Of a DNA stretch of 64,000 bases, positions 17,604-27,482 are shown piece after piece. Each line of letters opens with the position of its first letter. Positions within the stretch are counted from its first letter, which is position 1. The stretch comes from Providencia vermicola (lineage in GTDB: Bacteria; Pseudomonadota; Gammaproteobacteria; Enterobacterales; Enterobacteriaceae): the NCBI RefSeq assembly GCF_020381325.1, contig NZ_JAGSPI010000003.1, positions 62,001-126,000 of the forward strand. The letters are read 5' to 3'. Below the pieces are notes generated by a model. The model was given only the letters and a program-made list of their open reading frames with translations. It searched no databases and was not told where the DNA came from. The translations under genes were made by a program, and so were the position numbers.

Positions 17604-17807
17604 GTTGCCCCAACTCATTATTTTTATGATTGTGGGATATAGAAATATACATGAAATGTATAACTTCTTTGGATGATAGCAACTTAAGGAAATTGAACAA
17701 GTAATAATTCACTTTTATTGCATAAAAAGGCGATTGGTTATAAAAAACATATGCCCTGTCTAGTGTCAGTTAACTGATCTGTTCGAATGAACATTAGCGC
17801 CTAAAGA

Positions 17808-17895
17808 ATATTCATTCCATACAAATAGCACAGTTCGTTACCTCGGTATCGAAGTCGATAATGTATTGGAGATATCTGAGTCAATTGAAGTATAA
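17808..17895 (+). pseudogene. 3' remnant of a tyrosine recombinase (integrase) gene
   Basis: An open frame of about 29 codons ends at TAA 17893-17895 and reads ...HTNSTVRYLGIEVDNVLEIS. It resembles the C-terminus of plasmid- and transposon-borne tyrosine recombinases (LLGHTxLESTVRYLGIEVDDAL), with the catalytic Tyr in RYLG. The rest of the gene is missing, with a TGA upstream in the same frame. An immediately following GC-rich hairpin is similar to what ends such genes. It is a scar of an earlier mobile element at the border of the accessory catabolic region. Confidence 0.75.
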
Positions 17896-17901
17896 ATCTA
17901 T

Positions 17902-17922
17902 CAGGGCTGTTCCCCAGCCCTG
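17902..17922 (+). terminator. Hairpin after the integrase remnant
   Basis: CAGGGCTG and CAGCCCTG pair around TTCCC. No T tract follows, so it may be a terminator relic or a recombination-site hairpin. Confidence 0.45.
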
Positions 17923-17996
17923 TGCCTAATGTAGATGAGGCCATTGTTCACTTATCTTTAATTGAAGCGTGCTACATTTAAAAAATAGTCGGGTGC

Positions 17997-18557
17997 TTAT
18001 TCAAGATTGGCGTGCCGTCTGAACATGCTTTCACTGGTTTCGTTCAATAAACTCATAAGCTTTAATATAATCGCATCATAAGTAATAAAACATAGTTGTT
18101 CGAATGCTGACCCCATCGGCTGTGAAAATACGTCCTCTTTTCGGGTGTTATCGTTTTTAACTGTTCCTGGTAATACCAATATGCTATTCGCTAAGTGGCC
18201 AATAGAGGAATCCGCTTTCATCGTTACTAGCGCAACACTAACACCACTGTCGACGGCTTTTTGAGCTAAACTCACTAAACTTCCTGTTTCTCCACTTCCT
18301 GAACCTATGATGACAAGGTCACCAGCTTGTGTATGAGGGGATGAAATCTCCCCGACTACACTGACTGAAAAACCGAGGTGCAAGAGTCGATTAGCAAAAG
18401 CCCTAATAGCTATCCCGCTACGGCCAGCCCCTTGCAAAAATATATGGTTTGCTTGACGGATTTGTTCAACGAATTGATCGGCTTGCGTATCATTAATTTT
18501 CAGCGCGTTTTGTTCTAATTCTTTTAAAATATTAATAGTGTATTCTTGAATATTCAT
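17997..18557 (-). CDS. SIS-domain sugar-phosphate isomerase, 6-phospho-3-hexuloisomerase (HxlB)-like
   Basis: This 186-residue protein consists of one SIS domain. The sugar-phosphate-binding segments QGAGRSGIAIRAFANRLLHL (about residues 36-55) and IIGSGSGETGSLVSLAQKA (about 83-101) are typical of 6-phospho-3-hexuloisomerase, which interconverts D-arabino-3-hexulose 6-phosphate and fructose 6-phosphate. No hexulose-phosphate synthase is present, so a formaldehyde-fixing RuMP role is unlikely. It is the last gene of the cluster A operon, 11 bases after the dehydrogenase gene. The inferred role is conversion of a 3-keto-hexose phosphate from that dehydrogenase. Confidence 0.75.
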   Translation of the reverse strand: MNIQEYTINILKELEQNALKINDTQADQFVEQIRQANHIFLQGAGRSGIAIRAFANRLLHLGFSVSVVGEISSPHTQAGDLVIIGSGSGETGSLVSLAQKAVDSGVSVALVTMKADSSIGHLANSILVLPGTVKNDNTRKEDVFSQPMGSAFEQLCFITYDAIILKLMSLLNETSESMFRRHANLE

Positions 18558-18568
18558 TTTACATTCCT

Positions 18569-19321
18569 TTATGCAATAGTACGTCCGCCGTCCATTAAAA
18601 TTGTTTGCCCTTGGATATAAGAATTTGATTTGTCTGCTAGGAAAACGGCTAGATTAGCAACATCATCTATCGTACCAAGGCGTCGAACAGGAATTTTTTC
18701 AAGCACAGCGTCTAAATCTGCTTGCGTTGGATAATTAACACGCATCATTTCACCTGTATCAATCAGGCGTGGCGCGATAGCATTAACATTAACGCCTTTT
18801 GGGCCCAGCTCTTTTGCTAGACCACGAATAAGCCCTTCACCACCGGCTTTACTTGCAGGATAACTCACACCGCCTCCCGTACCAGAGAGTGCAGAACCAG
18901 ATGATATATAAACAATCGAACCATGATTTATTAAAAAATCATCATAGAATGCTTTAACTGTATTAAATAAACCGCTTAAATTAATTGAGATTGTTTTATT
19001 CCATTCATCATAAGAAATATCATTAACTTTATTTGCAAAGGCTACGCCAGCATTTAAAATCAAAATGTCAATACGGCCAAATGCATTGAATACATCTTCG
19101 CGAACTTTAATTAATGCTTGAGGATCAGAAACATCTGTTTTAATAAATAATGACTTAACTTTACCAAAAGTTAATTCTTTTGCAGTTTCAATACCATTTT
19201 GTTCATTATAATCAACGATTATCGTGTGCGCACCTTTATTGGCAAATTGTTTCGCGATGCCTTTACCAATACCATGCGCACCACCTGTAATCAATGCAAC
19301 TTTCCCAATGAAATTGCTCAT
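18569..19321 (-). CDS. Short-chain dehydrogenase/reductase (probable polyol- or sugar-phosphate dehydrogenase)
   Basis: This 250-residue classical SDR has the nucleotide-binding TGGAHGIG at residues 12-19 and Asp37 after the second strand, which favours NAD(H). The catalytic residues are Asn114, Ser140/141, Tyr154 and Lys158 (SYPASK). The C-terminal region carries the usual PVRRLGTIDDVAN and SNSYIQGQTILMDGG. Its substrate cannot be read from sequence. Given the adjacent PTS, epimerase-like and hexuloisomerase-like genes, oxidation of a phosphorylated polyol to a keto-sugar phosphate is the best inference. Confidence 0.8.
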   Translation of the reverse strand: MSNFIGKVALITGGAHGIGKGIAKQFANKGAHTIIVDYNEQNGIETAKELTFGKVKSLFIKTDVSDPQALIKVREDVFNAFGRIDILILNAGVAFANKVNDISYDEWNKTISINLSGLFNTVKAFYDDFLINHGSIVYISSGSALSGTGGGVSYPASKAGGEGLIRGLAKELGPKGVNVNAIAPRLIDTGEMMRVNYPTQADLDAVLEKIPVRRLGTIDDVANLAVFLADKSNSYIQGQTILMDGGRTIA

Positions 19322-19406
19322 TTATATTTACCTCTTAAATTTTAATGGACAGAGGAATAGTGCTCCCTCTATTATTTAAATAGAACCTAAGAATTAATAT
19401 TTCATT

Positions 19407-20057
19407 TTATTGAATGGCTTTATTTAATAATTGATAATTTTCTTTTGCATTACCATTAAATAGCGCACCACCTACCACAATTAAATCGGCACCTGCATCT
19501 TTAACTTTTTTTGCAATTTCAATATTAACGCCGCCATCCACTTCTATTTTGATATTTCGGTTCGCGATGAGTTTTTTAGTATTACGTATTTTTTCTAAAC
19601 TCTTTTCTATAAATACTTGTCCTGGTTGCCCAGGGTTAATTGTCATCAGTAATACATAGTCAATATCATCGAGTAAATATTCCAGTACACTTTCTGGTGT
19701 ACCCGGATTTAAAACCACGCCCGCTTGACGTCCTGCCTTCTTTATTTTTTGCAAAATATAATGAATATGCGGTGTTGATTCATAATGAACAGAAACCATT
19801 TCAGCACCAGTTTTAATGACATCGTCAATGTGACTTTCTGGGTTTGCTAACATCATATGAACATCAAATACCATCGTGCTAACTTGTTTGAGTGCAGCAA
19901 TTTGGTTTGGCCCAAAGGCGATATTGCTAACAAAATTTCCATCCATTAAATCAACATGTAAAATTCCTGTTTTTTCAGACTGTAAAAATTCAATTTCATC
20001 TTGTAGGCGTAAGATATTTGCACCGAAGATTGAAGGTAGTATTTGTGCCATTTCCAT
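19407..20057 (-). CDS. Ribulose-phosphate 3-epimerase family protein (Rpe/SgcE/AlsE-like)
   Basis: This 216-residue TIM-barrel protein has the family metal and catalytic motifs ILHVDLMDGNFV, FDVHMM, LLMTINPGQPGQ and IEVDGGVN. Housekeeping Rpe normally has SVNPGFGGQ; the TINPGQPGQ variant points to a paralogue such as SgcE or AlsE with a different sugar phosphate. It is encoded between EIIC and the dehydrogenase in cluster A. A second in-frame ATG at 20051 is a plausible start, since GGAG lies nine bases before it. Confidence 0.8.
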   Translation of the reverse strand: MEMAQILPSIFGANILRLQDEIEFLQSEKTGILHVDLMDGNFVSNIAFGPNQIAALKQVSTMVFDVHMMLANPESHIDDVIKTGAEMVSVHYESTPHIHYILQKIKKAGRQAGVVLNPGTPESVLEYLLDDIDYVLLMTINPGQPGQVFIEKSLEKIRNTKKLIANRNIKIEVDGGVNIEIAKKVKDAGADLIVVGGALFNGNAKENYQLLNKAIQ

Positions 20058-20076
20058 TTACTCCATAGGTTATTAA

Positions 20077-21330
20077 TTAATGAGAAAATGTACTTAACCA
20101 GTAAGTCAAAACTTCCCAAGGCCCAGTTAGAACAAAGTCCGTACCTTGCCCGTTAAGGCCGACGCCTGCCCCATTTAAAAATTCTGTCGCCCCAGGCGCA
20201 ACATAGGCACCTAAGTACATAACAACAATACAAAATAGCACTGTTGATATGATTGAGCGGATGACATTCCCATTACATACCATGACAGTCATTGTGGTCA
20301 TGTAGATGATGGACATCAGCACTCCAATAGGGAAAATTTGAATTCCAGGTAACACCAAAGCGCATAACATGGTTAATGGAATTGTTATCACTGTTACCGT
20401 AACGGTTGATGGGTCACCTAATGCAAGGGCGCAATCCATACCAATATTAAGTTCCGCATCTTTACCCATTTGTTTTTGCATGATTTCTTTGGCACTTTTA
20501 CCAATAGGGTTTAGACCCTCCATCAATATACTGACCACTTTAGGCAGCAATACCATGACACCGGCCACCCCCATAGCCATTGGCACAATAGTGGTAATAT
20601 TTTGTTTTGTTAATACCCCGAGTAAAAGCCCGACAATCACCCCGATAATGGCAGGTTCGCCAAATACACCAAGGCGTTTTTGCGCACTTTCTAGGTCTAC
20701 ATCGAGTTTATTAATCACAGGGATGTAATCGATGATTTTATTAACAACCCATGCAAAAGGTAGTGTCCAACCTGTGTGGATCATAGTGGTACACGTTGTT
20801 CCTTCTAGTCCGTAATATTTCTGCCAACGAGGTGCAATGAGATCACCCACAAATAAAGCTGCAACACTTAACGCAACAGAAATACCCAACCCAAGAAAGA
20901 AACTATCGAACACGAAATAAGCCAATGCACCAGGAACAAGAAAGTGCATGTAATTCCAAATATCAACATTCAATGTTTTTGTTAGTTTTAAGCGAACTAA
21001 GAAAAGATTTAAGACAATACCAATCGGGATCACGAGTGCAGCAAAAGGAGCTACCCATGCTGCGGCACCAACGGCTGGCCAACCAATATCCGCAATTGTG
21101 AATCCACTCCCTACATTTGAATAATATTCAATTGCTGGTTGTAGTGAGGAGTTTAACAAACCAACAACTAGCCCTAATCCAATAAAACCAATACCAACCG
21201 TAATACCTGATTTTATCGCCGCGCCCACTTTCATGCGAAAAACTAAACCGAGAATGAAAATAACTAGTGGCAATATTGCTGTTGCGCCCATACCAGTTAT
21301 TGTTAACATCATGTTTTTTAACATTTCCAT
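20077..21330 (-). CDS. PTS galactitol-type transporter subunit IIC (cluster A)
   Basis: This 417-residue polytopic protein of the GatC/SgcC family has about ten hydrophobic segments. Family features include GITVGIGFIGLGLVVGLL near residue 45, the Asp in DIWNYMHF, the loop SILMEGLNPIGKSAKE and the segment IGMDCALALGDPSTVTV. It should transport and phosphorylate a polyol or sugar together with the EIIB encoded 21 bases upstream. No EIIA gene lies in this operon. Substrate assignment to galactitol is not warranted. Confidence 0.88.
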   Translation of the reverse strand: MEMLKNMMLTITGMGATAILPLVIFILGLVFRMKVGAAIKSGITVGIGFIGLGLVVGLLNSSLQPAIEYYSNVGSGFTIADIGWPAVGAAAWVAPFAALVIPIGIVLNLFLVRLKLTKTLNVDIWNYMHFLVPGALAYFVFDSFFLGLGISVALSVAALFVGDLIAPRWQKYYGLEGTTCTTMIHTGWTLPFAWVVNKIIDYIPVINKLDVDLESAQKRLGVFGEPAIIGVIVGLLLGVLTKQNITTIVPMAMGVAGVMVLLPKVVSILMEGLNPIGKSAKEIMQKQMGKDAELNIGMDCALALGDPSTVTVTVITIPLTMLCALVLPGIQIFPIGVLMSIIYMTTMTVMVCNGNVIRSIISTVLFCIVVMYLGAYVAPGATEFLNGAGVGLNGQGTDFVLTGPWEVLTYWLSTFSH

Positions 21331-21351
21331 TTTGGTTTCCCCCGTTCCTTA

Positions 21352-21645
21352 TTAACTTTTTATTAATCCAGTTAATAGTTCTCCTAACTTTTTCCTTAGT
21401 GCATCTTCATTGATTCCAGTGATGAACCCTGCAACGCTCATATGAGGCTTATCAATTTCACCTTTATAGTTATTTGTTGTGAGGACAACGTCCGCATTTG
21501 TTATCTCAGATGATAGTTCTGACATGCTACATTTGTTGATTTTGTATGATGTTATATTGTATTGAGAACAAACTGCTTTAACTTCATCAGCAGCTAAAGT
21601 TGATGTTGCTACTCCGCTTCCGCAGGCGACAAGGATAGTAATCAT
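21352..21645 (-). CDS. PTS galactitol-type transporter subunit IIB (cluster A)
   Basis: This 97-residue phosphotransfer protein has the phosphocysteine at position 8 in LVACGSGVATST, the typical P-loop of GatB/SgcB/LacB-type EIIB. TNNYKG and GFITGINEDAL in the C-terminal half also fit. It is the first gene of the cluster A operon, behind GGAG. It needs an EIIA donor, and the nearest candidate is the EIIA of cluster B at 25.5 kb. Confidence 0.88.
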   Translation of the reverse strand: MITILVACGSGVATSTLAADEVKAVCSQYNITSYKINKCSMSELSSEITNADVVLTTNNYKGEIDKPHMSVAGFITGINEDALRKKLGELLTGLIKS

Positions 21646-22142
21646 AGAAACTCCAATTCATTGTTATTGTTAACATAAATAGTGATATAAATTACTAATT
21701 ATTGATTTCATAACAAGCATTAATAACTAGTGTATAAATTTTATCCTATTCGAAAGGCCATCAGTAATTGCGTTGTTTCATCCTCCGTTAATAATGCTCA
21801 TATGAGAAAATGAACAACAAACATAAGAGCGTTTATATCACGAGCATAATGAGCGGCAATGTGTATTATTAAAAAACACTACTTAAGTCACACAAAATAG
21901 CATTAAACCATTTTATTTTCCGCTCATAAGAGCGGAAAGAAGATAATGCTTCATATGAAAACCTGAAAAAACGTCGAAGTTGGAGTGATTAGCTTTAATC
22001 AATTAAGCCTAAATAATGACTACATGGCTAAATAAAGCTATTTCTGTACTACTTGGGGAGGAAGGTGGTGAGTTTTATTCGATGTGAGGCACTGGTGCTT
22101 ATCCGCTCTTTTGAGCACCAGTACAGTAAAGATGCTTGTCAT
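21646..22142 (-). promoter_or_regulatory. Cluster A promoter/operator region with repeated palindromes
   Basis: About 500 gene-free bases separate the regulator gene from EIIB. They contain CTCATATGAG (21797-21806, perfect palindrome), TTCCGCTC-ATAA-GAGCGGAA (21918-21937, perfect eight-base arms), TTCATATGAA (21950-21959, perfect palindrome) and the direct repeat GAGC-ATAAT-GAGC (about 21842-21854). The shared GCTCATAwGAG core suggests binding sites for the adjacent DeoR-type regulator. No coding frame was recognised. Confidence 0.55.
22091..22122 (-). terminator. Hairpin downstream of the DeoR-type regulator gene
   Basis: ACTGGTGCT and AGCACCAGT form a perfect nine-base stem with an inner CTCTTTTGAG palindrome. 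No T tract follows on either strand, so termination efficiency is doubtful. Confidence 0.4.
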
Positions 22143-22898
22143 TTAGCAGGTGATTACTTTTGTTTGTTTACTGAGCTCATTTACACGGTCTTTATCAGCA
22201 ATATCATTTGTAATAAGGGCTGTAATTTCATTCCATTCGCAAATTTTAAACAGGCTGCTACGTTGAAACTTAGAATAATCACCAAGTACATATTTCTTTT
22301 CAGAATGTGCGATGATGGCCTTATCGATAAATGCATCTGAGGACGATGGTGTTGATGGTCCCGATAGGTTATGGAATCCATCTGTACCAATAAAACATAA
22401 ATCAACATTAATACCATTGATCATGGATACAGCCCAGCCACCGAAAACAGAAGAACTTTTTTTCCTCAGCTCTCCCCCAAAAAGAAAAACTTGGTTATCC
22501 GATTCAATCAATATACTTGCGACAGGTAATGAGTCAGTAAAAATTTTATAGCCTGATTTTAGGCAAAGTAAATTTGCTAATTCAAAAGTAGAACTACCTG
22601 TACCGATTATCATGGAGCTATTTGCGGGAATAAACTCAAGCGCTTTGCGCGCAATTGCTTTTTTGTAGACTGTATTTTCTTTTTCTCTCACCTGAAAGGA
22701 GTGCTCAATTGCACCTTGTTTTAAGGTCGCTCCACCATGGCTTTTAACAAGCAAGCCTTTTTGCTCAAGGTAAGTTAAGTCTTTTCTAATTGTTTCATAA
22801 GTGACTGAATACTTTTTAGCAAGCTCACTCACATGAACAGTGCCTGCAGAAATAATATCATCAAGGATCATTTTTCTCCTTTCATCAACTATGTACAT
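22143..22898 (-). CDS. DeoR/GlpR family transcriptional regulator (cluster A)
   Basis: This 251-residue regulator has an N-terminal helix-turn-helix (VHVSELAKKYSVTYETIRKDL, about residues 21-41; recognition helix TYETIRKDL) followed by KGLLVKSHGGA. The C-terminal DeoR sensor domain has MIIGTGSSTFELA and IGTDGFHNLSGPSTPS, which bind a phosphosugar inducer in this family. Encoded just upstream of the cluster A PTS operon in the same direction, it most likely represses that operon through the palindromes in between. GAGG precedes the ATG. Confidence 0.85.
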   Translation of the reverse strand: MYIVDERRKMILDDIISAGTVHVSELAKKYSVTYETIRKDLTYLEQKGLLVKSHGGATLKQGAIEHSFQVREKENTVYKKAIARKALEFIPANSSMIIGTGSSTFELANLLCLKSGYKIFTDSLPVASILIESDNQVFLFGGELRKKSSSVFGGWAVSMINGINVDLCFIGTDGFHNLSGPSTPSSSDAFIDKAIIAHSEKKYVLGDYSKFQRSSLFKICEWNEITALITNDIADKDRVNELSKQTKVITC

Positions 22899-23250
22899 TT
22901 AACTTACCTCTATTCTCTTATGCATGTTGGAATTATGGAGATAATAACACAATTATTACCAATAAAAGCAAATCCCACACTCAATAAAAGCCATTCTGTC
23001 AATTTTTCACTGAAAAAACAAAACAATTCAATACATTGTTTTTAAACACTTTTAATAACAATAAGATTTATTTCACGAAATAATCTTCGTCGTATCAAAA
23101 TATCCGACAAAAAAATAATATTGGCTTTTATTTGCTTTTAACTGAATAAATATCAATATGTTACAAAATATGTGACATTAATCTCAGTTGACAACCAATA
23201 ATTACCAATTGCATACTTGGCTTTATGAATTAATTGACAGGTTGGGTAAT
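22899..23250. promoter_or_regulatory. Divergent control region between the DeoR regulator and cluster B
   Basis: The region holds a perfect palindrome TTATTTC-AC-GAAATAA at 23068-23083, extended by AGA/TCT outside. A CRP-like site TGTGA-CATTAA-TCTCA lies at 23171-23186. Several AATAAAAGC / GCTTTTATT motifs occur in opposite orientations around 22960-22990 and 23122-23142. No coding frame is convincing; the in-frame N-terminal extension of the RpiB-like ORF (from 23188) overlaps this control sequence. Confidence 0.5.
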
Positions 23251-23787
23251 ATGAAAACGAAAATAGCAATTGCATGTGATGATGTTGGTTTTGAACGCAA
23301 GGAAGAAATTAAAAAATATCTGCTAGAAGAAAAAAATGCAGAGATTGTTTATGATCCAGTTAAGCAAAAAAAGGACGGTGTGAATAATTTTGCGATCCTT
23401 GCGGATGAAATGGCAGGTGTTATTCAACGTGATGAATGTCGTTTAGGTATTTATATCTGCGGAACAGGAATTGGGTTTACTTGCCAAATCAATAAACATT
23501 GGGGGATCCGGGCTGTAGCAGTGACAAACCCTTATTCTGCTAAGCGTGCAAGACTAAGTAACAATGCACAAGTTATTGGCCTAGGATGCAGAGTGAGTGA
23601 TTTAGAATATACGAAAATGATTATTGACTCTTGGTATGACAATTCGTTTGATTTTTCAACCGCGAGAGAAAACTCCAAAAAAAATCTTTTAGAAGCCGAA
23701 CGCAGCGATAATTCACTATTAGTAAAACCAGAAAATGTTCGCTGGAATATGGGGTTTAGACCAGATGACGATAAACTGAGGGCATAA
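23251..23787 (+). CDS. RpiB/LacAB family sugar-phosphate isomerase
   Basis: This 178-residue protein has the RpiB fold signature: IAIACDDVGFERKEEI at the N-terminus, the active-site Cys70 in YICGTGIGFTCQINK, and RAVAVTNPYSAKRARLSNNA with VIGLGCR. About 30 residues at the C-terminus exceed housekeeping RpiB (149 residues). The family isomerises aldose and ketose phosphates of four to six carbons. ATG at 23251 was preferred over an upstream in-frame start that lacks family support. It is three bases before the cluster B EIIC gene. Confidence 0.8.
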   Translation: MKTKIAIACDDVGFERKEEIKKYLLEEKNAEIVYDPVKQKKDGVNNFAILADEMAGVIQRDECRLGIYICGTGIGFTCQINKHWGIRAVAVTNPYSAKRARLSNNAQVIGLGCRVSDLEYTKMIIDSWYDNSFDFSTARENSKKNLLEAERSDNSLLVKPENVRWNMGFRPDDDKLRA

Positions 23788-23790
23788 AAA

Positions 23791-25161
23791 ATGGAATTAA
23801 TAACGCAGTTTATTAATGATTTAGGAAATTTTATTTTTATCCCTGTCATTTTTCTTATATTAATGAAGATGTTAGGTCGTCCATGGTCTGAGTGTATTTC
23901 TTCAGCAATTAAAGTTGGAATAGGGTTCATTGCGCTAACAATGACCATAAGATTCATGCTTGAAAAAATGCAACCCGCCGTCACTGGGCTGGCTGAAAGA
24001 ACAGGTTCTTCCCTAAGTGCTATCGATGTTGGCGGTGCAGCAACTGCGGTGATGGGATTTGGCTCTAGCATGGGGGCAATAATCATTCCGCTTTGTGTTG
24101 CCGTGAATATTATCATGCTGTTGGTTCGTTTGACTGATTGTGTCAATGTTGATGTATTCAATTTACACCAAAATGCATCAATGGGGGCAATTGTGGGTGT
24201 CTACTCCGGCAGCTTTTTTTATGGCGTGTTAACTGCTGGATTATTCCATGTTTGGGCATTAATTGCTGCCGATCTTGGGGCGAAAAATAATGAAAAATTC
24301 TTTAATCTGCCAAAAGGTGTCGCGATTTCACACCCCGTAGCAAATACGTATATGCTTTTCGCCTACCCATTTAATTGGGTTTATGATCGTATTCCTGGTT
24401 TTCGTCACTGGAATGTTACCGCTGAAAGTATCCAAAAACGTTTTGGTATCCTTGGTGACCCGACTATGGTTGGTTTTATCATTGGTATTTTATTGGGTTT
24501 TTGTGGTTATGGTTGGGAATCCCCTTATCACACAATTATTGCAAGCTTACAACTCGGTATGTACCTTGCAGCAGTCATGCTATTACTACCAAGAATGACC
24601 TCTATCATGATGGAAGGTTTGGTTCCGTTATCAAATGTTGCACGTAAGAAATTAGTAAAACGTTTTCCAAATAGAGACATTACGGTGGGTATGGATACAG
24701 CGCTTATTGTGGGGCATCCTTCTGTAATTGCACCAGCATTACTCTTGATCCCCGTTATTGTTATTCTGGCTGTTATTTTACCGGGTAACCGAGTAATGCC
24801 ATTGGGCGACCTCTCACAGTTTGTGTTCTTTATTGCTTGCATGGTACCTATTTTTAACGGGAATATCATTCGTACATGGGTAACGTCAATCTTCTTATTT
24901 GGTGGAGGGCTCTATATTGCTTCATGGATGGCGCCTGCAACCAATGAAGTATTCCAAAAATTTGGGACAAATCCGGATGCAAGTGTGATGTATTCATCAC
25001 TTAACCCATCAGCTAATCCATTCACAGGGCTATTTGCTGCACTTAGCCATGTTGGTGTTGTTGGGTATGTTCTGGCCGGCGTTCTCTTAGTCTCTGTTGG
25101 GTATTTAATTAAACAAAAGTCACGTCATAAATTAGAAAATGAAGTGGAAAAAACACTTTAA
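23791..25161 (+). CDS. PTS galactitol-type transporter subunit IIC (cluster B)
   Basis: This 456-residue GatC-family permease has about ten membrane segments. Landmarks parallel those of the cluster A paralogue: KVGIGFIALTMTIRFML, the NVDVFNLHQNASMG loop, SIMMEGLVPLSNVARK and VGMDTALIVGHPSV. The two EIICs are clearly homologous but distant, so they probably differ in substrate. The C-terminus has an additional hydrophobic helix and a basic tail. The gene is tightly packed after the isomerase gene and 24 bases before EIIB. Confidence 0.88.
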   Translation: MELITQFINDLGNFIFIPVIFLILMKMLGRPWSECISSAIKVGIGFIALTMTIRFMLEKMQPAVTGLAERTGSSLSAIDVGGAATAVMGFGSSMGAIIIPLCVAVNIIMLLVRLTDCVNVDVFNLHQNASMGAIVGVYSGSFFYGVLTAGLFHVWALIAADLGAKNNEKFFNLPKGVAISHPVANTYMLFAYPFNWVYDRIPGFRHWNVTAESIQKRFGILGDPTMVGFIIGILLGFCGYGWESPYHTIIASLQLGMYLAAVMLLLPRMTSIMMEGLVPLSNVARKKLVKRFPNRDITVGMDTALIVGHPSVIAPALLLIPVIVILAVILPGNRVMPLGDLSQFVFFIACMVPIFNGNIIRTWVTSIFLFGGGLYIASWMAPATNEVFQKFGTNPDASVMYSSLNPSANPFTGLFAALSHVGVVGYVLAGVLLVSVGYLIKQKSRHKLENEVEKTL

Positions 25162-25185
25162 ACCATTTACTTAGGAATAATCAAA

Positions 25186-25470
25186 ATGAAAAAGATTTTA
25201 GTTGTATGTGGAAATGGTATCGCCTCTTCTTCAATTATGGTGTCTGTATTGCAAGATTTTTTGAAAGAAGAAAATATCGAAGCACAAGTTGAGAAATCAT
25301 CACTAATGGCATGTTCTGCCGATACTTTTAATAGTTATGATTTAGTGGTTTCATCAACCAAGCTTGATAACCCAGAAATTACTACTCGCGTGATTGTAGG
25401 AGCAGGTTTATTAACGGGTATCGGAGAAGACGAAATTTTTGATGCTGTCAAAGACGTTATTCAAAAGTAG
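25186..25470 (+). CDS. PTS galactitol-type transporter subunit IIB (cluster B)
   Basis: This 94-residue EIIB has phosphocysteine Cys8 in ILVVCGNGIASSS. Its C-terminal LVVSSTKLDNPE and GAGLLTGIGEDEI fit the SgcB/GatB type. AGGA precedes the ATG. It is seven bases upstream of the EIIA gene and certainly co-translated with it. Confidence 0.88.
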   Translation: MKKILVVCGNGIASSSIMVSVLQDFLKEENIEAQVEKSSLMACSADTFNSYDLVVSSTKLDNPEITTRVIVGAGLLTGIGEDEIFDAVKDVIQK

Positions 25471-25477
25471 GTGCGAT

Positions 25478-25933
25478 ATGAAATTTGAAATTCTAGTCAA
25501 CGATGTTGATGGAAAAATAGAAAACTGGCAATCAGCCATTGAATTTTCAGGTCAAAAATTGTTGGAGCAAGGTTATATTTCGCCAGAATATATCACCGCT
25601 TGCTTAGAACGAGAAAAGACCTACCCAACGGGTTTATTAATGGGGAATGGGCAAGGCATTGCAATTCCTCACGCTGATTATACACTGGTTAAAACCAACA
25701 GCATTTGTATAGTACGATTTAAAGAAGCGGTGACTTTTGGTCAGATGGAAGATTCTGATCTCGTTGTGGATTGTCACATCATGTTTAATCTTGCTTTCGC
25801 AACCAGTGACCAACACTTATCCATACTGCGTCGTTTGTTTACATTATTCCAAGATATTGAGTTTATCGAGTCATGTCGGCAGTTATCGACAGATGAAGTT
25901 GGAAAGTATGTGTTAGAAAAGCTTTCTATCTAG
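25478..25933 (+). CDS. PTS fructose/galactitol-type subunit IIA (cluster B)
   Basis: This 151-residue EIIA domain of the PTS_EIIA_2 type has the phosphorylated His65 in GIAIPHADYTLV and a preceding catalytic-loop TYPTGLLMGNGQ. It accepts phosphate from HPr and gives it to EIIB. ATG at 25478 follows AGGTG. This is the only EIIA in the two clusters, so it may serve both the cluster A and the cluster B EIIB (inference). Confidence 0.85.
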   Translation: MKFEILVNDVDGKIENWQSAIEFSGQKLLEQGYISPEYITACLEREKTYPTGLLMGNGQGIAIPHADYTLVKTNSICIVRFKEAVTFGQMEDSDLVVDCHIMFNLAFATSDQHLSILRRLFTLFQDIEFIESCRQLSTDEVGKYVLEKLSI

Positions 25934-25943
25934 AAATAAACAA

Positions 25944-25976
25944 AAAAGGTAGATATCTCGGTATCTACCTTGTTTA
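25944..25976 (+). terminator. Rho-independent terminator of cluster B
   Basis: AAGGTAGATA and TATCTACCTT form a ten-base stem around TCTCGG. Short A and T tracts flank it, so it can also act for the convergent regulator gene. Confidence 0.75.
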
Positions 25977-26007
25977 ATTAAATTTTTGTGTACTTTATTT
26001 GATCATG

Positions 26008-26988
26008 TTATTCATTTAAAAGCTTCGTTGCCGTATCAAAATCAGTGATTAAAACATCAAGAAGACCCGATTTTAAAGATGCAACAATACCTTGATATTT
26101 TTCCTCACCACCAGCAACACCTATCACTTTTTTAGTATTTCTCAGCTGTTCACTGGTGATACCGAAACCATAGTTTGTCATCGGGCTTGCTAAAATTTCA
26201 CCTTTGCTATTCACAAGGGTAATGCAGATATCAGCTGCAATATCTTGGTTAATCAATGGAGTACTCCAAGATTTAGGAAAAATATCATATAAGCTGGAAG
26301 AGCCCGACTTCCAGTCCCCAATCCCCGTTATAATAACATCTAAGTTTGAATAAAATTTCTGAGTTTCCATCACCGCTTGATCTTCACAGAGTTTCTGTGC
26401 GAGACTTTTATCATCCACCCACATTGGCACATACATTGGATAGGCTTTCCCTTGAGAAACAGACGCTATTTTATGAATTAAATCAATGGGCCCTTGACTA
26501 AATTCAATGCCTGGATGAACGCCTGAAAGTTGGACAACATCCAAAGGTGGTAATGACTCAAGTTGACTCACTGTACTTGATAATACCCTTCCCCAAGCGA
26601 CTCCCAGCTTCATCCCTTCTTTTAGATTTTTTGTTAGGTACTGCGCTGTGATGCCACCAAGTTTTGCGTTTAATTGTTCCTGAGAAGACCAAGAGTCAGA
26701 GATAGAGAGAATAACTGTATCGTGTAAATTGTATTTTTCACATAAGTTTCGAGTTATCTCTTCGTCTAAGACTTGTTGCTTAGGAAAAATGAATTTAACG
26801 TAACCTTGCTCTATAGATTCATCAATCAGCCTAGCTACTTTAAAGCGAGACACACCAAGCTCTTCCGCTATTTCAATTTTAGTTTTCATTTCTGAAAAAT
26901 AACGTTTAGCAACAAAGGAATAAATGTATCGAGGATCAGAGTGCTGCCAGCGATTTTTCATTTTTTGTTCGGGCATCATAGACTCCAT
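26008..26988 (-). CDS. SorC family transcriptional regulator (cluster B)
   Basis: This 326-residue protein has an N-terminal helix-turn-helix (TKIEIAEELGVSRFKVARLI, about residues 36-55). The C-terminal SorC sugar-binding domain has LGVAWGRVLSSTVSQL, a ligand loop in VVQLSGVHPG, the ITGIGDW motif and the ending VIGVAGGEEKYQGIVASLK. SorC regulators control neighbouring sugar and polyol operons in response to phosphorylated substrate. It is convergent with cluster B and is its likely regulator. Internal ATGs at 26979 and 26976 follow GGAG and may be the true start. Confidence 0.83.
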   Translation of the reverse strand: MESMMPEQKMKNRWQHSDPRYIYSFVAKRYFSEMKTKIEIAEELGVSRFKVARLIDESIEQGYVKFIFPKQQVLDEEITRNLCEKYNLHDTVILSISDSWSSQEQLNAKLGGITAQYLTKNLKEGMKLGVAWGRVLSSTVSQLESLPPLDVVQLSGVHPGIEFSQGPIDLIHKIASVSQGKAYPMYVPMWVDDKSLAQKLCEDQAVMETQKFYSNLDVIITGIGDWKSGSSSLYDIFPKSWSTPLINQDIAADICITLVNSKGEILASPMTNYGFGITSEQLRNTKKVIGVAGGEEKYQGIVASLKSGLLDVLITDFDTATKLLNE

Positions 26989-27482
26989 TATGGATTTAAG
27001 TGGTACAAATAAATAGGCGATAACATTATTGCCAAGATATTTTTTATCAAAAGAGTATACGTTTTTATGCTCATAAGGTAAATCTGAAGTGCCATAGTTA
27101 GTTTAGTACCTTTAATAGAGTCTGCGCTCATATTTTGAAATGCAACACGACAAAACTTAAAGATATTAATAAATTAACATTTAATTACCCAAATTAAAGT
27201 AGCTAAAAACTATCCTGCTATTGAGCCTAAATTTTTTAGAGGAAAAGTCACTTTTACTGAATTGTTAGGTTACTGCAATGAAAGGTGAATCTATCACGAA
27301 AATAATTATTCATTTAGATGTAATCTATTTATGCTTAAGGGGAGCTTAGTCTTCTCTTAGCCCAAAGCCCCCGGTCAGATTTAGTAATGTACTGAGAAAA
27401 AATTGTTAAATCTAAATCAACTAACACATTCAACTTGTGCTTGACGCTGCTAATTAGTGCCAGATACGGCAAGCTATAAAAA
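26989..27482. other. Gene-free region between the SorC regulator and guaA
   Basis: About 490 bases of AT-rich DNA hold the regulator promoter. Two GCTCAT half-sites (near 27069 and 27126) resemble the cores of the cluster A palindromes. An inverted repeat AGATTTA...TAAATCT spans about 27378-27413. A 23-codon frame starting near 27278 has no support as a gene. The location just past the guaA 3' end, a known island insertion site, is noteworthy. Confidence 0.45.

Follow-up and report, generated by a model that had tools for sequence, protein, structure and literature searches.

What does HxlB, a 6-phospho-3-hexuloisomerase best known from the formaldehyde (ribulose monophosphate, RuMP) pathway, do in a sugar-transport operon? 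The question is raised by a gene cluster in a 64,000-nucleotide stretch of the Providencia vermicola genome (contig NZ_JAGSPI010000003.1, positions 62,001 to 126,000; hereafter the window). An earlier note on this DNA had listed six minus-strand genes, for a DeoR-family regulator, enzymes IIB and IIC (EIIB and EIIC) of a phosphotransferase system (PTS), a ribulose-phosphate epimerase (Rpe)-like protein, a short-chain dehydrogenase/reductase (SDR) and an HxlB-like protein. All six open reading frames (ORFs) are present, and profile matches confirm their families (Table 1). They make up one half of a two-operon cluster spanning positions 17997–26988, whose genes public annotation labels one by one. 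We give an even chance to the following explanation, taken as a whole: the cluster would be a horizontally acquired and mobile (on plasmids and islands) catabolic route for rare hexitols or hexoses, in which two GAT-family PTS operons share HxlB as their exit.

HxlB and the operons it accompanies

In relatives, operon 1 has the gene order IIA-IIB-IIC-Rpe-SDR-HxlB, and operon 2, divergent to it, reads RpiB-IIC-IIB-IIA, often with a second HxlB gene (HxlB2) added. In the window, the genes beyond DeoR likewise run divergently and encode an RpiB/LacAB-like isomerase, a second GAT-type EIIC, an EIIB and an EIIA, followed on the opposite strand by a SorC-type regulator. The five-gene set that the earlier note had treated as a unit is present but is not the whole unit, as it usually includes an EIIA gene (EIIA1) and is accompanied by a second PTS operon.

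The two operons are separable. Our gene map covers 40 stretches: the window, L001, L009–L032, five plasmid loci and nine further genome stretches, among which L085 repeats L016 and L087 repeats L021. Operon 1 occurs without operon 2 in the stretch at 14 distinct enterobacterial loci, with SorC at all 13 that extend far enough on that side (L013 ends short). The map holds no DeoR relative at these 14 loci; an earlier comparison gave one of 28% identity in L020, where EIIC is in two pieces. Operon 2 stands alone at four loci (L070, L080, L081 and L082), each with DeoR and a full HxlB2 and none with SorC; the L082 genome carries operon 1 elsewhere (L083). Inspection by eye found no dehydrogenase among the ORFs between RpiB and HxlB2 in L080–L082, and picked out a putative aldo-keto reductase beyond DeoR in L080. 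Both operons and both regulators are found at 11 distinct loci. Here HxlB2 is full in five (L011, L014, L068, L069 and L084), in broken pieces in L032 (where other genes are broken too), a remnant of 61% length in L071, and absent from the window, L001, L016 and L018. Thus, HxlB2 is missing or decayed only where operon 1 is present. Among nine other loci, seven (L017, L024–L028 and L030) keep SDR, Rpe-like, HxlB-like and PTS genes in varying orders, and the truncated locus L029 keeps SDR, Rpe and SIS genes with weaker matches. Several of the nine begin with a large ORF for a putative PRD-type regulator.

A third module extends this pattern to enterococcal plasmids. HxlB has matches at E 1e-40 or better in 146 Enterococcus plasmid records, and in the ten of these that were listed the plasmid HxlB is 72.7% identical to that of Enterococcus raffinosus. 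Two E. faecium plasmids (pSU8419_2, L113 5714–11552, and L114) encode a PRD-EIIA regulator, IIA, IIC, IIB, a YjbQ/UPF0047 protein, an Rpe-like protein and HxlB, and neither module contains an SDR or an RpiB. The Rpe-like protein of this module is 37.1% identical to that of the window, with a changed β6 loop (NPGTENK) and a short β8 loop. Finding YjbQ among sugar genes may offer a clue to the function of UPF0047 proteins. Because HxlB accompanies a PTS even where the SDR or Rpe is absent, it would thus appear to be the common exit enzyme of these PTS modules, and the core of the proposed route gains support from the same observation.

The assignment of HxlB itself is consistent across the modules. 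HxlB1 of the window aligns with Bacillus subtilis YckF (PDB 1m3s) over residues 2–186 and is 79.6% identical to the copy in a cluster of the same gene order in E. coli. HxlB1 (214.5 bits), HxlB2 (192.1 bits) and the E. faecium plasmid HxlB (208.4 bits) all pass the HxlB equivalog cut-off of 160 bits. The partner enzyme of the RuMP pathway, hexulose-phosphate synthase (HxlA), has no match above its family cut-off in the 4.24 Mb, 19-contig source genome (the best of four matches reaches 132.9 against 200 bits), which agrees with the absence reported in the earlier note, and it is not among the annotated genes of the two E. coli and seven plasmid stretches viewed. We therefore reject membership in the RuMP pathway, which requires the synthase. 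In E. coli BEN2908, genomic region GR 29 pairs a further HxlB-like gene with a PTS-II-BC-glcB gene and includes RpiR and LysR regulators (PMC12928451), and HxlB may therefore also accompany other PTS families. A HAD phosphatase-like ORF comes after HxlB1 in two enterococci (L017 11422–12087 and L025 11455–12072); that of L017 resembles β-phosphoglucomutase-family and hexitol phosphatases. hxlB (K08094) is also listed among genes associated with two E. coli clades tied to necrotizing enterocolitis, in an excerpt that does not specify which hxlB is meant (PMC4819403).

The window copy of operon 1 differs from its relatives in one gene. An EIIA gene precedes EIIB in the E. coli cluster and in every enterobacterial operon 1 with its 5′ side covered. 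In the window, a permissive tblastn search of the interval between DeoR and EIIB with the E. coli cluster EIIA gave nothing beyond chance fragments (best E 1.5). Alignment with relatives shows that the promoter region and a pair of operator-like palindromes are preserved, and that the EIIA1 gene just downstream is gone. The absence of EIIA1 is a loss local to this copy. The earlier note was right that the six-gene stretch holds no EIIA, but EIIA2 lies 3 kb away in the divergent operon of the same cluster. With EIIA1 lost, operon 1 would therefore need EIIA2 or another EIIA in trans, and EIIA2 or any of six other PTS_EIIA_2 domains in the genome might replace it. EIIA2 shares 72.2% identity with its E. 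coli counterpart and 24.7% with EIIA1 of E. coli.

The operator-like sites suggest separate control of the two operons. The palindrome GCTCANNTGAGC, allowing for no more than a single mismatch, is found in the 420 bp ahead of operon 1 in all 26 stretches compared (24 distinct, several of them close relatives of one another), with frequent positions around −36, −159 and −279; among 5000 mononucleotide shuffles of 25 of these upstream regions, 45 did as well. No such site lies upstream of operon 2 in 18 stretches (17 distinct). Operon 1 thus goes with a SorC-type regulator and the GCTCANNTGAGC site, and operon 2 with DeoR. The SorC-type protein is the likely binder of GCTCANNTGAGC, because operon-1-only loci have SorC without DeoR. 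Between positions 21600 and 23300, a scan found 11 promoter-like sites against a shuffle mean of 8.4 (sd 2.9), no clear excess, and a terminator scan of the same interval found none.

Altered enzymes and a possible route to fructose 6-phosphate

The transport proteins and the dehydrogenase belong to known families. The SDR is 89.2% identical to the E. coli cluster copy and 82.8% to that of E. raffinosus, and the latter figure suggests transfer of the gene across phyla. None of the best 25 of 235 matched NCBIfam SDR models reaches its cut-off, and at 27.2% identity to K-12 SrlD the protein is rejected as the sorbitol-6-phosphate dehydrogenase. EIIC1 and EIIB1 are 90.6% and 79.4% identical to their E. 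coli cluster copies. EIIC1 matches the Pfam EIIC-GAT family, but both proteins fall below the galactitol PTS models (EIIC, Table 1; EIIB, 52.6 against 95 bits), and we reject identity with the galactitol PTS (GatABC).

Examination of the two sugar-phosphate enzymes highlights changes near their active sites. The RpiB-like protein passes the RpiB/LacA/LacB model (Table 1) but not the RpiB equivalog (100.1 against 138.65 bits). Cys66 is kept in 18 of 18 sequences, and positions 10, 133, 134 and 137 are changed in all 18. Position 99, whose histidine in RpiB we take to be the ring-opening residue, is Ser in 17 and Glu in the broken L032. Given the score and the loss of His99, identity with RpiB is rejected; an ordinary RpiB is also encoded in the genome. 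The Rpe-like protein retains His34, Asp36, His67 and Asp174, presumably the metal ligands of Rpe. A scan of 29 stretches found it in 27 (some repeats; none from L031 or L032), and in these the β6 loop reads NPGQPGQ in 23 and NPGTPGQ, NPGESGQ or NPGTEGQ in four. The NPGFGGQ loop of K-12 Rpe occurs in none of the 27, and the β8 loop is short in all 27, as in K-12 Rpe; the loop of the D-allulose 6-phosphate 3-epimerase AlsE is one residue longer. A DNA pattern for INPGQPGQ is found in 11 of 392 sampled genomes of the family, exactly the 11 that carry the SDR. In addition, the genome encodes an ordinary Rpe with the NPGFGGQ loop and an AlsE-like protein with DPGYAGQ and the longer β8 loop. With 170.9 bits against the AlsE cut-off of 271 and a short β8 loop, the Rpe-like protein is ruled out as AlsE itself.

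How might these enzymes act together? The genes, their linkage and co-conservation, the operator-like sites and the altered loops are seen directly; the reactions and substrates we infer from them. The operon 1 PTS would import and phosphorylate a hexitol, and the SDR would oxidise the hexitol phosphate with NAD. The Rpe-like enzyme would then epimerise C4 of a hex-3-ulose 6-phosphate, the position that takes the place of C3 in ribulose 5-phosphate, and HxlB would turn hex-3-ulose 6-phosphate into fructose 6-phosphate, draining the pool. Operon 2 would import a sugar already at the hexose oxidation level, which its RpiB-like enzyme and HxlB would likewise bring to fructose 6-phosphate. The Rpe-like and RpiB-like enzymes would thereby run the pentose-phosphate interconversions one carbon up: D-arabino-hex-3-ulose 6-phosphate corresponds to ribulose 5-phosphate extended by one carbon on C1, the C4 epimer to xylulose 5-phosphate extended by one carbon, and D-allulose 6-phosphate to ribose 5-phosphate extended by one carbon. 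A short-loop enzyme with a changed β6 loop beside HxlB fits hex-3-ulose 6-phosphate because the distance from carbonyl to phosphate equals that in ribulose 5-phosphate. This specific form of the proposal, a hex-3-ulose-phosphate pathway in which Rpe and RpiB types have been re-tuned one carbon up in the pentulose 5-phosphate register and HxlB delivers fructose 6-phosphate, is tentative, and we put it appreciably short of an even chance.

The earlier note had proposed that a PTS-imported polyol phosphate is oxidised by the SDR to a 3-keto-hexose phosphate and isomerised by HxlB, with the epimerase adjusting stereochemistry; this scheme is compatible with the data and has comparative support, but it is incomplete. 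Were the SDR to act at C3, the epimerase would be required for D-talitol (= D-altritol) or D-iditol 6-phosphate. Were it to act at C2 of galactitol 6-phosphate, the resulting tagatose 6-phosphate would pass through HxlB, the Rpe-like enzyme and HxlB again to fructose 6-phosphate, a route that would also explain the enterococcal module lacking an SDR. D-allulose 6-phosphate from operon 2 could be handled by the RpiB-like enzyme and HxlB alone. By stereochemistry only, the substrate candidates are D-talitol (= D-altritol), D-iditol and galactitol for operon 1 and D-allulose for operon 2. If the hex-3-ulose-phosphate pathway is real, several hexitols and ketohexoses would be converted to fructose 6-phosphate, with changes at C4 as well by way of the 3-keto intermediate and with neither a bisphosphate aldolase nor formaldehyde chemistry involved, by modules that plasmids and islands have spread among Enterobacterales, enterococci and streptococci.

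Weighing the alternatives

Several observations weigh against a hexitol or hexose route. The score of the Rpe-like protein is high enough for the ordinary Rpe family (Table 1). The meaning we attach to β8 loop length comes from Chan and colleagues (2008), who reportedly linked the longer AlsE loop to hexulose 6-phosphates and the short loop to pentulose 5-phosphates. His99 is lost from the RpiB-like protein though allulose 6-phosphate can form a ring, which the allulose view leaves unexplained. L031, which has PTS genes and an SDR of 53% identity but lacks both Rpe and HxlB, is a counter-example at this distance. Finally, an ATP-binding cassette (ABC) importer and a kinase adjoin eight of the 14 distinct operon-1-only loci (L009, L010, L013, L015, L022, L023, L072 and L088), and the L009 kinase passes the xylulokinase cut-off (397.6 against 380.25 bits); this may favour a pentose reading or an unrelated neighbour. 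The ABC importer and FGGY kinase of L009 (11552–16575) are possibly a second entry into the same pathway.

The pentose reading, which we consider unlikely but worth real weight, would have ribitol, D-arabitol or xylitol imported as the 5-phosphate and oxidised by the SDR to ribulose or xylulose 5-phosphate, with a plain Rpe, a plain pentose isomerase and the SIS protein in a side role or as an arabinose 5-phosphate isomerase. GAT-type PTSs for pentitols are known, and the Rpe score, the short pentulose-type β8 loop and the xylulokinase and importer neighbours all suit it; an arabitol PTS has also been proposed in the part of a report on Bacillus methanolicus available (PMC6685057). Against it, HxlB passes its own cut-off and shares 20.8% identity with the N-terminal region of GutQ, an arabinose 5-phosphate isomerase; all enterobacterial loci with operon 2 alone retain HxlB, for which a pentose route would have no need; and the Rpe and RpiB loops deviate from those of the ordinary enzymes, which the genome already encodes. 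Oxidation at C2, from allitol or altritol 6-phosphate to D-allulose 6-phosphate with the Rpe-like protein as an AlsE-type 3-epimerase and HxlB as an auxiliary, has the appeal of established chemistry, since the AlsE route from allulose 6-phosphate is known and AlsE and the Rpe-like protein belong to a common family. We nonetheless regard it as quite improbable: the AlsE score and the longer AlsE loop are wanting in the Rpe-like protein, an AlsE-like protein with that loop is encoded elsewhere in the genome, and HxlB would be left without a task.

A different kind of alternative concerns this copy alone. Operon 1 of the window could be a decaying remnant incapable of import without its own EIIA, which we judge somewhat unlikely and which is compatible with the hexitol or hexose route proposed above. 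EIIA1 has gone without trace, and the SDR is found in one of 24 genomes of the genus (this one), which makes the cluster a recent or unstable acquisition. Yet the five downstream ORFs are intact, the promoter region and two operator-like sites are kept, and EIIA2 and the six other PTS_EIIA_2 domains are at hand. Moreover, third codon positions diverge far more than first and second positions from Klebsiella oxytoca in six genes (Rpe excluded), a comparison that leaves the loss itself undated. A formaldehyde (RuMP) function with the synthase encoded elsewhere would match the pathway from which HxlB is best known, but it is very improbable, as no HxlA exceeds its cut-off in the genome, none is annotated in the E. 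coli and plasmid stretches viewed, and the PTS genes, SDR and regulators do not fit.

Known systems, spread and genomic setting

Likenesses to described systems are partial. E. coli gatYZABCD likewise has a GAT-family EIIC and handles its polyol through a PTS and a dehydrogenase, but there the dehydrogenase is GatD, a zinc enzyme, instead of an SDR, and an Rpe-like protein and HxlB occupy our cluster in place of the GatY/GatZ aldolase. The RuMP pathway (HxlA-HxlB) has the same HxlB family and the proposed last step in common, but the cluster lacks HxlA, and its substrate would come from a PTS sugar, not formaldehyde. RpiB-type and Rpe-type genes also adjoin in the E. coli D-allose locus (als operon, rpiB), which aims at fructose 6-phosphate; that pathway differs in its ABC import and kinase, in the longer β8 loop of AlsE and in lacking an SDR and HxlB. 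The E. coli sgc operon combines PTS IIA, IIB and IIC with an Rpe-family protein and a regulator, but it lacks an SDR and HxlB, and with SgcE at 29.7% and SgcC at 30.3% identity it is a distant relative only, not a counterpart. The E. faecium plasmid module resembles the cluster in its GAT-type PTS, changed β6 loop and HxlB (64% identical to that of the window), and differs in having YjbQ/UPF0047 and neither SDR nor RpiB. The arabitol operon of B. methanolicus pairs a PTS with a polyol-phosphate dehydrogenase, but its gene table, in the portion available, has other dehydrogenases and no Rpe-HxlB pair, and we reject it as a match (PMC6685057). The psicose locus of K. pneumoniae is likewise a different gene set (permease, kinase and allulose-6-phosphate epimerase) in the excerpt available (PMC6020474).

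A literature search that covered few subscription journals found no published description of the pathway or of the E. faecium module, in line with the earlier note, which knew of no pathway with this combination. GAT-type PTS operons are known; as far as searched, this enzyme set appears new. If the proposal is right, HxlB, which annotation reads as a marker of formaldehyde assimilation, has a second, mobile role in the use of sugars and sugar alcohols, and hxlB matches in gut bacteria may be misread. The cluster also points to enzymes that may carry out isomerisation or epimerisation of rare sugar phosphates at C3 and C4, which would be useful in rare-sugar synthesis.

The set is not peculiar to this genome: a search of other genomes, which the earlier note had suggested, recovered it in various gut and plant bacteria. 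In E. coli the same gene order lies beside a tRNA-Asn gene (in a DNA search, an 8 kb query matched over about 28% of its length, with 76% identity), and 223 of 5426 complete E. coli genomes (about 4%) hold at least 80% of the E. coli copy, with 265 holding some of it. Together with the SDR and a related HxlB on plasmids, this frequency would point to a common but unnamed nutrient niche. Among 72,556 plasmid records, the SDR is on 36 and the RpiB-like gene on 39. A scan of named genomes gave 39 loci, of which 24 (L009–L032) have an SDR of at least 53% identity, 15 from Enterobacterales and nine from Enterococcus, Streptococcus and Firmicutes metagenome-assembled genomes; the other 15 (L033–L047) match the SDR at 40% or less. 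In the 392 family genomes, the SDR occurs in 11 and the RpiB-like gene in seven, one with three internal stops.

Table 1. Features of the two-operon cluster, with window positions and supporting matches
Feature	Position	Strand	Evidence or remark
HxlB1, SIS-domain 6-phospho-3-hexuloisomerase-like	17997..18557	−	TIGR03127, 214.5 bits (cut-off 160)
SDR, putative NAD-dependent polyol-phosphate dehydrogenase	18569..19321	−	PF13561/PF00106
Rpe-like epimerase, NPGQPGQ loop	19407..20057	−	TIGR01163, 226.6 bits (cut-off 212.6); likelier start 20051
EIIC1, GAT family	20077..21330	−	PF03611; TIGR00827, 323 bits, below cut-off 542.2
EIIB1	21352..21645	−	PF02302
Regulatory stretch, EIIA1 gene of relatives missing	21646..22142	−	No coding remnant; promoter region aligns with relatives
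Operator-like palindrome TCTCATATGAGC	21796..21807	−	1 mismatch to GCTCANNTGAGC
Operator-like palindrome GCTCTTATGAGC	21922..21933	−	1 mismatch to GCTCANNTGAGC
DeoR-family regulator, assigned to operon 2	22143..22898	−	PF00455, PF08220; accompanies operon 2
RpiB/LacAB-like isomerase without His99	23251..23787	+	TIGR00689, 96.1 bits (cut-off 88.3)
EIIC2, GAT family	23791..25161	+	PF03611; 29% identity to EIIC1
EIIB2	25186..25470	+	27.2% identity to EIIB1, 88% to E. coli cluster copy
EIIA2, nearest possible EIIA for operon 1	about 25475–25933	+	PF00359
SorC-type sugar-binding regulator, assigned to operon 1	26008..26988	−	PF04198; accompanies operon 1

The cluster is an insertion between alr and guaA, because three of four relatives examined (L110, L111 and L112) carry the DNA on either side of it (up to about 17.73 kb and from about 27.4 kb in the window) but not the cluster, with 4.5, 6.6 and 1.1 kb of other DNA, respectively, between the closest matching segments. 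In L109 the guaA side alone matched within the 18 kb taken. The alr-guaA interval (window 17730–27475) appears as a variable insertion site with differing DNA across the genus, and these four stretches hold no cluster-like DNA there. No tRNA gene was found in the window. Seven partial E. coli copies are listed (H134–H140) that keep the SorC-side end and have lost the HxlB side, as if deletions began at the tRNA-Asn side.

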